A model generated the notes under the pieces. The model had not been told where the DNA came from. It worked only from the letters and a program-made list of their open reading frames with translations, and did not search any database. Source: Candidatus Gastranaerophilales bacterium (GTDB taxonomy: Bacteria; Cyanobacteriota; Vampirovibrionia; Gastranaerophilales; Gastranaerophilaceae). From it: a stretch of 64,000 nt of DNA. Shown here piece by piece: positions 22,357 to 25,530 of this stretch. The position numbers were made by a program, and so were the translations under genes. Every line of letters starts with the position of its first letter. Position 1 is the first letter of the stretch. The DNA lies in assembly GCA_947587615.1 (NCBI GenBank), contig CANPYC010000007.1, positions 1 through 64,000 of the forward strand, in the 5' to 3' direction.

Positions 22357-23391
22357 ATGGAAAATAAAATTCATCAAATTGAACAAGAAGCACTGGCTGA
22401 AATTGAAAAAGCAACAGACTTAAAAAGTCTTGAAAATGTTAAAAATAAATACCTTTCAAGAAATTCCGAATTTAACAACCTAAAAAAAGGCATGAAAGAT
22501 ATTCCAAACGAGAAAAAGCCTTTAATTGGTTCTCTTTTAAATAAAGTTTCTCAAAAGCTGACAAGTCTTATTGATGAAAAAAATCAAATTTTCTATCAAA
22601 AAGAACTTAATGAAAAGCTTTTAAAAGAAAAAATCGATATAACGCTTGATGGAGAATATATCCCGCAAGGGCATGTTCACCCTTTAAGTCAAACAATTAA
22701 TGAAATTGTTGATATATTTAACTATTTGGGTTTTTCTTTAATTGATCCAAAATTATCTCCTGAAGTTGAAGTTGAGAAATATAACTTTGATTTGTTGAAT
22801 TTTCCAAAAGAACACCCCGCAAAAGATATGCAAGATACATTTTACTGCACAAGCGCTAAAAATGTTATTTTAAGAAGTCAAACATCCAATGCGCAGGCTC
22901 GTGAGATGATGAACACCAAACCGCCCATTAAAATTATCTCTCCCGGCAGAGTATACAGAAATGAATCGGTGAGTGCACGAAAAAACAACCTTTTTCATCA
23001 GATTGAAGGTTTGTATGTTGATAAAAACGTTACAATGACACAATTAAAAGGTGTTTTAAACGAATTTATAAGATTATACTTCGGCTCATCCCGCCCGACA
23101 AGATTTAGAAGCAGTTATTTTCCATTTACTGAGCCATCGGTTGAAATTGATGTTCAATGCATAATGTGTCAGGGTAAGGGCTGTCCGACATGCTCCAATA
23201 CAGGCTGGCTTGAAATTTTAGGAGCAGGCATGGTTGATCCTAACGTATTAAGAGGGGTTAATATCGACCCTGAAGTATACTCGGGCTTTGCTTTTGGTAT
23301 GGGTGTTGAAAGACTTACAATGTTAAAATATGCAATTGATGACATTAGACTGTTTTTTAACAATGACGAAAGATTCTTAAAACAATTCTGA
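22357..23391 (+). CDS. pheS: Phenylalanyl-tRNA synthetase alpha subunit
   Basis: GHVHPLSQTINEIVDIF, FHQIEGLYVDKNVTM, FRSSYFPFTEPSVEIDV, GFAFGMGVERLTMLKY. Confidence 0.97.
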   Translation: MENKIHQIEQEALAEIEKATDLKSLENVKNKYLSRNSEFNNLKKGMKDIPNEKKPLIGSLLNKVSQKLTSLIDEKNQIFYQKELNEKLLKEKIDITLDGEYIPQGHVHPLSQTINEIVDIFNYLGFSLIDPKLSPEVEVEKYNFDLLNFPKEHPAKDMQDTFYCTSAKNVILRSQTSNAQAREMMNTKPPIKIISPGRVYRNESVSARKNNLFHQIEGLYVDKNVTMTQLKGVLNEFIRLYFGSSRPTRFRSSYFPFTEPSVEIDVQCIMCQGKGCPTCSNTGWLEILGAGMVDPNVLRGVNIDPEVYSGFAFGMGVERLTMLKYAIDDIRLFFNNDERFLKQF

Positions 23392-23428: not shown

Positions 23429-24895
23429 TTGGCAAAAAATATTTTCATAAGTTTTTTTATAAGCATGCCAATTACACCACTTAACATCTTTAGAAAACAA
23501 ACAGTTTTAAAAAATCAAAATTCAAATATTGAAAAACCTAAAGATAATCCCGATTCAATTAAAGAATTTAGCTGGGATTGTTATAGCAGGCATGCTTTTT
23601 TTCAATTTATGAGCGCAAAAAGAACACTTGAGCTTTTAGAGCTGCAAGAAAAATTAGGTCTTAATTTTAAAGATATAAACCTGCTTAATCAGGTTTTTAT
23701 CCATGGCTCAAATAAACTTCCCAACAACATTACTCATAAAGAAACCTATCAAAATTTAGAATTTTATGGCGATACAATTTTAAGTGCATGTATTAAAAGA
23801 TTGTTTTTTGAAGAAATGCAGCCTAAAAACTTAAAAACGGCAAACTCTATATATGATAATATTGCCAGTAATAATAATCTTGCAAAGTATTCTTATAAAT
23901 TAGGACTTGATAAATTTATAATCACAAAACAGGAAAGTAAAAAACAAAAAGCAGATGTTTTTGAAGCTTTATTAGCTGCAATTACAATTAATTATAAGGA
24001 TGAGGGGTTTGATAAAGCTTATGAATTTTTTAAAAATACAATTAATAAAGAAACGTCGGACAAAATTAAAAACTCAACTAACCGCTCTCAATGCACTGAA
24101 TTAAAAAAACCTCTACACAGCAGCAAAACTTTATCAAAAGCAAAAATCAAAAAATTAAACAACTTTCAAGAAAAATATCAGCTGAATTTTAAAGATTTAA
24201 ATTTTTTGAATAAAGTTTTTAATCCTCCGTATCGCAACAAATCAGAAATGAATGATTATAATTTTATGACATATTTTGGAAGAAGCTTGTTTTATATGAG
24301 TATAACCCGTCTGATTATAGAAAATTATCAAAATTATAGAGAAAGTGATTACGATAAAATCAGAGAAATTTGCTTTAAGAGCGAAAACTTGATAAAAAAA
24401 TTTTACAAGCTTGAATTGGATAAATTTTGCAATTCTAACTCTGATGAACCATTGGAAAAAAGTTCAATTGATAAGTTCTATAATCTTTATTGCGCTATAT
24501 ATTTAAATAATAAAAAAGACGGATTTAACAAAATTTATGAATTTACAAAAGAAATTTTTAAAGGCGATGTCAAAAAAACCGTAGATGAATATGACAAATA
24601 CTATTCTTCTCATGATTTAATAATCAACTATTTAGCAGATAAAAAAGTTGATATGGATAAGGTTAATTTTGCAATTTCAAACGGAAGAAAAAAAGCTTTT
24701 TGCGTTTTTTATGACAACAACTTGCTTTTAAAAGTTATCGGTTCTAAAAACGACATCAACGCAGCCATGTTTAAGGAAGTTTCAAAACTGTTTGAAGAAG
24801 GCTATGTAAAAATAACAAAATATAAAGATAAAGAAGGAAATATTCAAAGCAGACTGGTTACTCTAAAACCCTATCACAAAACAATTTCCGTCTAA
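23429..24895 (+). CDS. Tandem RNase III-domain protein (active-like + degenerate) with dsRBD-like C-terminus
   Basis: Domain 1: YQNLEFYGDTIL and ADVFEALLAAI. Domain 2: same fold order (LNFKDLNFLNKVF...NFMTYFGRSLF...IDKFYNLYCAIYL) without the catalytic acidics. C-terminal dsRBD-like AFCVFYDNNLLLKVIGSKNDINAAMFKEVSKLF. Start uncertain: TTG at 23429 or ATG at 23465. Confidence 0.75.
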   Translation: MAKNIFISFFISMPITPLNIFRKQTVLKNQNSNIEKPKDNPDSIKEFSWDCYSRHAFFQFMSAKRTLELLELQEKLGLNFKDINLLNQVFIHGSNKLPNNITHKETYQNLEFYGDTILSACIKRLFFEEMQPKNLKTANSIYDNIASNNNLAKYSYKLGLDKFIITKQESKKQKADVFEALLAAITINYKDEGFDKAYEFFKNTINKETSDKIKNSTNRSQCTELKKPLHSSKTLSKAKIKKLNNFQEKYQLNFKDLNFLNKVFNPPYRNKSEMNDYNFMTYFGRSLFYMSITRLIIENYQNYRESDYDKIREICFKSENLIKKFYKLELDKFCNSNSDEPLEKSSIDKFYNLYCAIYLNNKKDGFNKIYEFTKEIFKGDVKKTVDEYDKYYSSHDLIINYLADKKVDMDKVNFAISNGRKKAFCVFYDNNLLLKVIGSKNDINAAMFKEVSKLFEEGYVKITKYKDKEGNIQSRLVTLKPYHKTISV

Positions 24896-25530
24896 TTTGA
24901 AAGAGCATTTTCAACCATGCTTTGTAATTTTTTCTTTTTGATATATTTAACAGATTTTTTATCAGGCTTAGCGCCTTTTTGTATCATCAAAGAAGCAATA
25001 TCAACCATACTGTTTTTAAGTGCCATATATAAAACCGTATTATCACTAACAGCGTCAATATAATTTACATTTGCGCCGTTTTCAATTAGATATTGAGCCA
25101 TCTCAAAATTTTTATTTGAAACAGCCGAATATAATTCACTGTTAAATCCTCTATCCAATTTAGCACCGTTTTCAAAAAGAAGCTTTAAAATTTCAAATTC
25201 ATTTTCTTTTGCTGCAATATAGATAGGATACTCGCTCATATATGATTGATTAATATTAATATTTGAGCTTAGAAGCAAACTAACATTTTCGACATTTCCT
25301 TTTTTTATTTGTTCTATCAGGCATGCTGTTGTCGGAGTTAATTTTTTCTGTAGCAGTAAATCTTTTTGTTCTTTGGTTAGAGTATTTTTTTTATTCAAAC
25401 TGTTTAATATTGAAGAACGTGACTCAAAGTCGCCAAACTCCGATAAATCAATAGCAAAAGTTGATGTCACGATTTGACTTGCAAATATAAACATCAACAA
25501 TACAATTAAATTTTTTCTTATTTTATACAT
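24892..25530 (-). CDS. Secreted ankyrin-repeat protein
   Basis: Signal peptide and ankyrin motifs (YPIYIAAKENEFEILKLLFENGAKLD, NFEMAQYLIENGANVN). Confidence 0.85.
   Translation of the reverse strand: MYKIRKNLIVLLMFIFASQIVTSTFAIDLSEFGDFESRSSILNSLNKKNTLTKEQKDLLLQKKLTPTTACLIEQIKKGNVENVSLLLSSNININQSYMSEYPIYIAAKENEFEILKLLFENGAKLDRGFNSELYSAVSNKNFEMAQYLIENGANVNYIDAVSDNTVLYMALKNSMVDIASLMIQKGAKPDKKSVKYIKKKKLQSMVENALSN

Follow-up and report, generated by a model that had tools for sequence, protein, structure and literature searches.

A gut bacterial protein carrying tandem RNase III domains, one of which keeps all four metal ligands

A protein with two RNase III domains (RIIIDs) in one chain is encoded in the window (the whole stretch of DNA analysed, 64 000 nucleotides) from a gut bacterium of the cyanobacteria-related Gastranaerophilales. 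The first domain retains an intact set of catalytic metal ligands and the second a degenerate one. The protein is judged fairly likely to be an RNase III that forms a pseudo-dimer within one chain and has one cleavage centre, and to act as an accessory paralogue because a normal rnc in the same genome covers the housekeeping role. In its affinities the gene is best read either as a member of a small set of RNase III fusions confined to the genus, all with one live centre per chain, or as a product of evolution parallel to theirs. The features are listed in Table 1.

Table 1. Features of the double RNase III gene, its neighbours and its relatives
Feature	Position	Strand	Remarks
pheS, upstream neighbour	22357..23391	+	37 bp before the TTG of 23429-24895
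CDS, two RNase III domains	23429..24895	+	488 aa, TTG start
N-terminal disordered tail	23429..23602	+	Residues 1-58; pLDDT below 50; holds LKNQ
RNase III domain 1	23609..24058	+	Residues 61-210; intact metal-ligand set; profiles, model
E111 ... D115, signature helix	23759..23773	+	E. coli E41, D45
D176 ... E179	23954..23965	+	E. coli D114, E117
RNase III domain 2	24119..24583	+	Residues 231-385; degenerate site T281, R285, D348, Y351
C-terminal alpha-beta-beta-beta-alpha region, possible degenerate dsRBD	24584..24823	+	AlphaFold, Foldseek
Ankyrin-repeat gene, convergent	24892..25530	-	Overlaps stop codon of 23429-24895
Related tandem RNase III fusions	Loci L033-L036, L041-L043		Congeneric Gastranaerophilales
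888-aa four-RIIID proteins	L033 8480-11146; L035 6274-8940	- (both)	Three degenerate and one intact domain

The gene and its two RNase III domains

The reading frame has a second candidate start, an ATG at codon 13 (23465), which is as likely as the TTG. The chance probability of 488 open codons at the local composition is ~7e-21, and both the position-3 GC of the codons and the base composition match those of the neighbour genes. The two flanking genes, pheS and the ankyrin-repeat gene, directly adjoin in 18 of the 29 other genus genomes; in the other 11, pheS is followed by a contig end or by different genes, and an inserted double RNase III gene was found between the two in none of the 29. 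A match to the protein beside pheS in one genome (G015) was spurious and corresponded to a membrane protein. A normal rnc (245 aa) lies between cdsA and rpe elsewhere in the same genome, which settles a check proposed in the sequence-only reading of this DNA.

Domain 1 matched Pfam Ribonuclease_3 with an E value of 1.3e-15 and Ribonucleas_3_3 with an E value of 9e-15; the scores of 58.4 and 55.4 bits against PF00636 and PF14622 lie above the cut-offs of 27 and 35 and place the protein in this RNase III fold family. Two stretches of the first half exceeded the cut-offs, and Pfam showed no other notable domain in the chain. Against the NCBIfam equivalog TIGR02191 the score was 97.1 bits, below the cut-off of 166.25, and the protein thus falls outside that equivalog. 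The mean identity of domain 1 to the rnc products of the genus is 34%. The signature residues had been described as mostly kept with Gln in place of the first Glu, and this was borne out: all four metal ligands are present (E111, D115, D176 and E179), and Q108, just upstream of E111, occupies the E. coli E38 position. A Gln at the first signature position also occurs in RIIIb of human Dicer. No acid (no Glu) is found in domain 1 at the position of E. coli E65. In the E. coli enzyme the metal ligands are E41, D45, D114 and E117; the other two acids, E38 and E65, are found at the two ends of the valley and at a distance from where cleavage occurs (PMC9291653).

Domain 2 shares 32% identity with domain 1. 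Residues 233-439 scored 52.8 bits (i-E 4e-15) with a hidden Markov model of 29 genus rnc genes, from which the window protein was left out, and domain 2 gave an E value of 2.6e-19 with a profile from the tandem proteins of relatives. With an RNase III profile from the other genus genomes, domain 2 alone reached 58.4 bits, compared with at most 10.5 bits in 1,933 shuffles. An AlphaFold2 model of residues 231-488 had block pLDDT values of mostly 79-98 over the RNase III part; its best PDB match in Foldseek was Aquifex RNase III, and mL44 and the RIIIb-dsRBD part of Dicer were also matched. The second half of the chain is an RNase III fold, as the profile scores, the shuffle control and the AlphaFold2 and Foldseek results agree, so that the two-domain composition held up, as did the structural expectation for the second half. 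The acidic positions of domain 2 had been read as replaced; this applies to three of the four ligands, which are T281, R285 and Y351 here, and not to D348, which is kept. The dimer-interface glycine (G284) is also retained.

The N-terminal tail carries LKNQ with NS after it and so matches in part the motif [LY]KNQ[IV]xF, which (once as LKTQILF) was found in the tails of nine of 859 distinct ORFs, all of them RNase III paralogues. For the C-terminal region AlphaFold predicted an alpha-beta3-alpha order (pLDDT 53-68) from an alignment that included rnc dsRBDs, and the segment scored alone gave no dsRBD HMM signal above shuffles. The dsRBD-like tail of the sequence-only reading is thus backed by the model and not by the profile, and the region is possibly a degenerate dsRBD.

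Arrangement of the chain and proposed mode of action

In the full-length model the block pLDDT was 63-97 for domain 1, 57-88 for domain 2 and below 50 for the N-terminal tail. This model was best matched by Dicer and Drosha over ~450 columns (TMq 0.46-0.53), with alignment depth for domain 1 only and global rmsd values to Dicer and Drosha of mostly 7-10 Å; one-domain matches to Aquifex RNase III had a TMq of ~0.27. Among sequence matches to solved structures, bacterial RNase III came first, followed by Drosha and Dicer. Since the Dicer and Drosha matches extend across both domains, an intrachain pseudo-dimer is supported, in which domains 1 and 2 would pack like RIIIa and RIIIb of these enzymes. 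The earlier proposal of an internal pseudo-dimer with one active centre thus agrees with both the model and the presence of one intact and one degenerate ligand set.

In the proposed mechanism, double-stranded RNA would lie in the joint valley of domains 1 and 2; two-metal catalysis in domain 1 would cut one strand, and domain 2 would hold the duplex without cleaving it, possibly with help in RNA binding from the C-terminal region. One-strand cutting would be expected since one centre is intact, and the outcome would be a one-strand nick or single cuts in stems instead of the staggered double cut typical of RNase III. The two RIIIDs of Dicer cleave a strand each, and ligand mutants of RIIIb lose one cut (PMC6695490); the window protein would, by analogy, be expected to cleave a single strand of dsRNA. 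Its accessory role would most likely be the processing or destruction of structured RNA.

Bacterial RNase III enzymes consist of two identical RIIID-dsRBD chains (PMC7827160), and the partner of domain 1 might accordingly be its counterpart in another copy of the protein, or else the housekeeping Rnc, giving an ordinary RNase III that makes two cuts, with domain 2 in a binding or regulatory role. The identity of domain 1 to the rnc products of the genus speaks for such pairing, which is nevertheless considered unlikely: the full-length model matches the intramolecular arrangement of Dicer and Drosha, and the single live centre in every related fusion, together with the dimer glycine in the dead domains (see below), is what an intrachain pair predicts. 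An intrachain pair is therefore favoured over a dimer of two copies of domain 1. Non-catalytic RNase III domains of the trypanosome editosome depend on the signature-helix glycine for their association (PMC5770545).

The protein might also be a non-catalytic or weakly catalytic RNA binder that binds or titrates RNase III substrates, in the manner of mL44 or the editosome KREPB proteins. Domain 2 is degenerate, mL44 is among the Foldseek matches of its model, and paralogues with a degenerate domain only exist in three genomes (G003, G009 and G017:C7); the retention of all four metal ligands in domain 1 and in seven of seven active domains of the relatives makes this reading less probable still.

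Related fusions in the genus and their descent

Seven related fusions were found in three of the 30 genus genomes (G011, G017 and G025). Five of them have 444-476 aa in the order degenerate RIIID, dsRBD-like region, active RIIID, and in the other two (888 aa) this dead-dsRBD-active unit is doubled to give four RIIIDs. Each of the eight multi-domain chains, including that of the window, has the full set of four ligands in one domain and in no other, thus combining one live RIIID with at least one dead one, and the signature-helix glycine is kept in all 14 degenerate domains. Glu at the E65 position is kept in none of the eight live domains versus nine of the 14 degenerate ones (Fisher p 0.006, the sequences being related and not independent). 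No sharing of the active site, by which a dead domain would lend E65 to the live centre, is claimed from this pattern, given the distance of the E38 and E65 positions from the cleavage sites (PMC9291653).

In G017, three adjacent multi-RNase III genes (L033 5729-11146, -) lie between a glyceraldehyde-3-phosphate dehydrogenase gene and dnaE, and a degenerate RNase III-dsRBD protein of 298 aa with an LKNQILFTG tail is encoded separately (L151 2531-3424, +). A Cys was observed at the D114 ligand position (ILACxFEA) in all 29 housekeeping rnc genes of the genus compared (example locus L001 1249-1986, -) and likewise in rnc from the several other genera of the family that were checked, whereas this position is an Asp in the active tandem domains.

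The window protein resembles these congeneric proteins in the fusion of degenerate and active RIIIDs, the single live centre, the LKNQ tail element and the absence of E65 from the active domain. The order differs, being active-dead in the window protein and dead-dsRBD-like-active, or this unit doubled, in the relatives. No orthologue with the layout of the window gene was found among 393 genomes of the order, so that the gene is known from one genome only, and a first contig scan with the window protein as query returned no relatives. The outcome for conserved architecture among relatives is thus mixed: fusions of active and degenerate domains occur in three congeneric genomes, in a different order, and the exact layout was found in none of the genomes sampled. 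Outside the genus, no fusions were found in 393 order-wide and 392 phylum-wide genomes with profiles that are blind to unrelated tandem RNase III proteins. Viral contigs scanned for relatives yielded nothing, and an origin from phages or plasmids was set aside, the phage and plasmid collections having given matches to single-domain RNase III only.

In the domain tree the N-terminal domains of the relatives grouped in one clade, separate from a second clade that held their active and second domains; the two window domains fell inside neither with support, and tree support was low. Tree tests did not reject a grouping of the two window domains together, nor their placement with the active clade. 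Placing domain 1 with the rnc of the genus gave a p-AU of 0.10 and with that of its own genome 0.06 (threshold 0.05); neither is rejected, the genus rnc grouping being disfavoured, and a duplication of the genome's own rnc may be the source of domain 1. The window gene and its relatives may be one family with a rearranged order or two parallel fusions.

The branch of domain 2 is long (1.9-2.0), for which relaxed constraint could be another meaning. For the fusion orthologues of G025 and G011, dN/dS was ~0.2 overall; the degenerate domain alone gave 0.27 and the active one 0.14. The value was 0.39 (NG86) or 0.17 (YN00) for a degenerate single paralogue and 0.03-0.07 for rnc. The related fusion family is fast-evolving yet under purifying selection. 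The occurrence of the window gene in one genome, the long branches and the low tree support would also suit a decaying duplicate with no selected function, which is rated the least probable of the readings: its 488 codons are open, the domain 1 ligands are intact, the position-3 GC is neighbour-like, and the dN/dS values of the related fusions and of the degenerate single paralogue argue against decay.

Comparison with known systems

Both window domains are homologous to Rnc and closest in sequence to that of the genus. The protein differs from class I enzymes, which have one RIIID per chain and a dsRBD, in having two RIIIDs per chain, one of them dead, and an uncertain dsRBD. It shares with Drosha and Dicer the order RIIID, RIIID, dsRBD-like region in one chain, and Foldseek matched it to both. 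The two RNase III folds per chain correspond to the Drosha type. In that type both RIIIDs are catalytic; the second RIIID of the window protein is without three of the four catalytic residues and keeps D348 only. Unlike Dicer, the protein is bacterial, is not an orthologue and is without PAZ, helicase and DUF283; PAZ and helicase gave no Pfam match in it at E values up to 10. Minimal Dicers without some of the PAZ and helicase parts exist (PMC7827160). No Argonaute (Piwi) above the family cut-off was present in the 30 genus genomes, in which one sub-threshold match occurred (G010), and a link to RNAi was dropped for this reason. The label 'Dicer-like' thus fits the core architecture and does not extend to PAZ, helicase or an accompanying Argonaute above cut-off, and the suggestion that such a chain might measure length differently was without support.

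In the trypanosome editosome KREN/KREPB proteins a catalytic RIIID is likewise believed to partner a non-catalytic one in which the dimer glycine is retained (PMC5770545), but these are separate chains in a large eukaryotic complex. Domain 1 also resembles the engineered 'bacterial Dicer' (E. coli RNase III E38A or E38A-E65A-Q165A) in being without the E38 and E65 acids; that enzyme is a homodimer with two live centres (PMC9291653), unlike the window protein.

In a 2021 review all bacterial RNase III enzymes were placed in the single-RIIID class, and only Drosha and Dicer were listed as classes with two RIIIDs (PMC8708148); Dicer is described as absent from bacteria and archaea (PMC7827160; also PMC5303251). 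A chain with two RIIIDs is thus regarded in reviews as eukaryotic (PMC8708148, PMC7827160). No description of a bacterial two-RIIID protein was found in the open literature, subscription-only papers lying outside the scope. The broader proposition, held at slightly short of even confidence, is that bacteria evolved a Dicer/Drosha-type RIIID-RIIID core at least once, perhaps twice in one genus, and tuned it to one live centre in chains of two or even four RIIIDs, giving a natural strand-specific dsRNA nickase. Natural bacterial chains with two or four RIIIDs would provide an independent test of how a homodimeric nuclease turns into an asymmetric enzyme of one chain, as is assumed to have happened when Dicer and Drosha arose, and one-strand nicking, if true, would provide a small enzyme for asymmetric dsRNA cutting.

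Type II CRISPR systems use RNase III, and Cas9 was found in four of the 30 genus genomes, that of the window included. A CRISPR link was rejected for lack of association: Cas9 was present in none of the three genomes with other fusions, and three of the Cas9 genomes are without fusions. The Cas9 of the window genome has ~1,006 aa (L152 4396-7413, -; G000:C5) with a cas1-like gene beside it, and four tandem paralogues of 302-341 aa (YEKIKxDFLIKY...) are encoded near the CRISPR locus (L152 9000-12955, -).

In some unrelated proteins (L161 1414-3015, L164 1369-1863 and L033 2690-4528, -) the N-terminal tail is N/K/S-rich and has INFKGN or ITFKGN at its end; these tails, akin in style to those of the RNase III paralogues, are perhaps a sorting signal.
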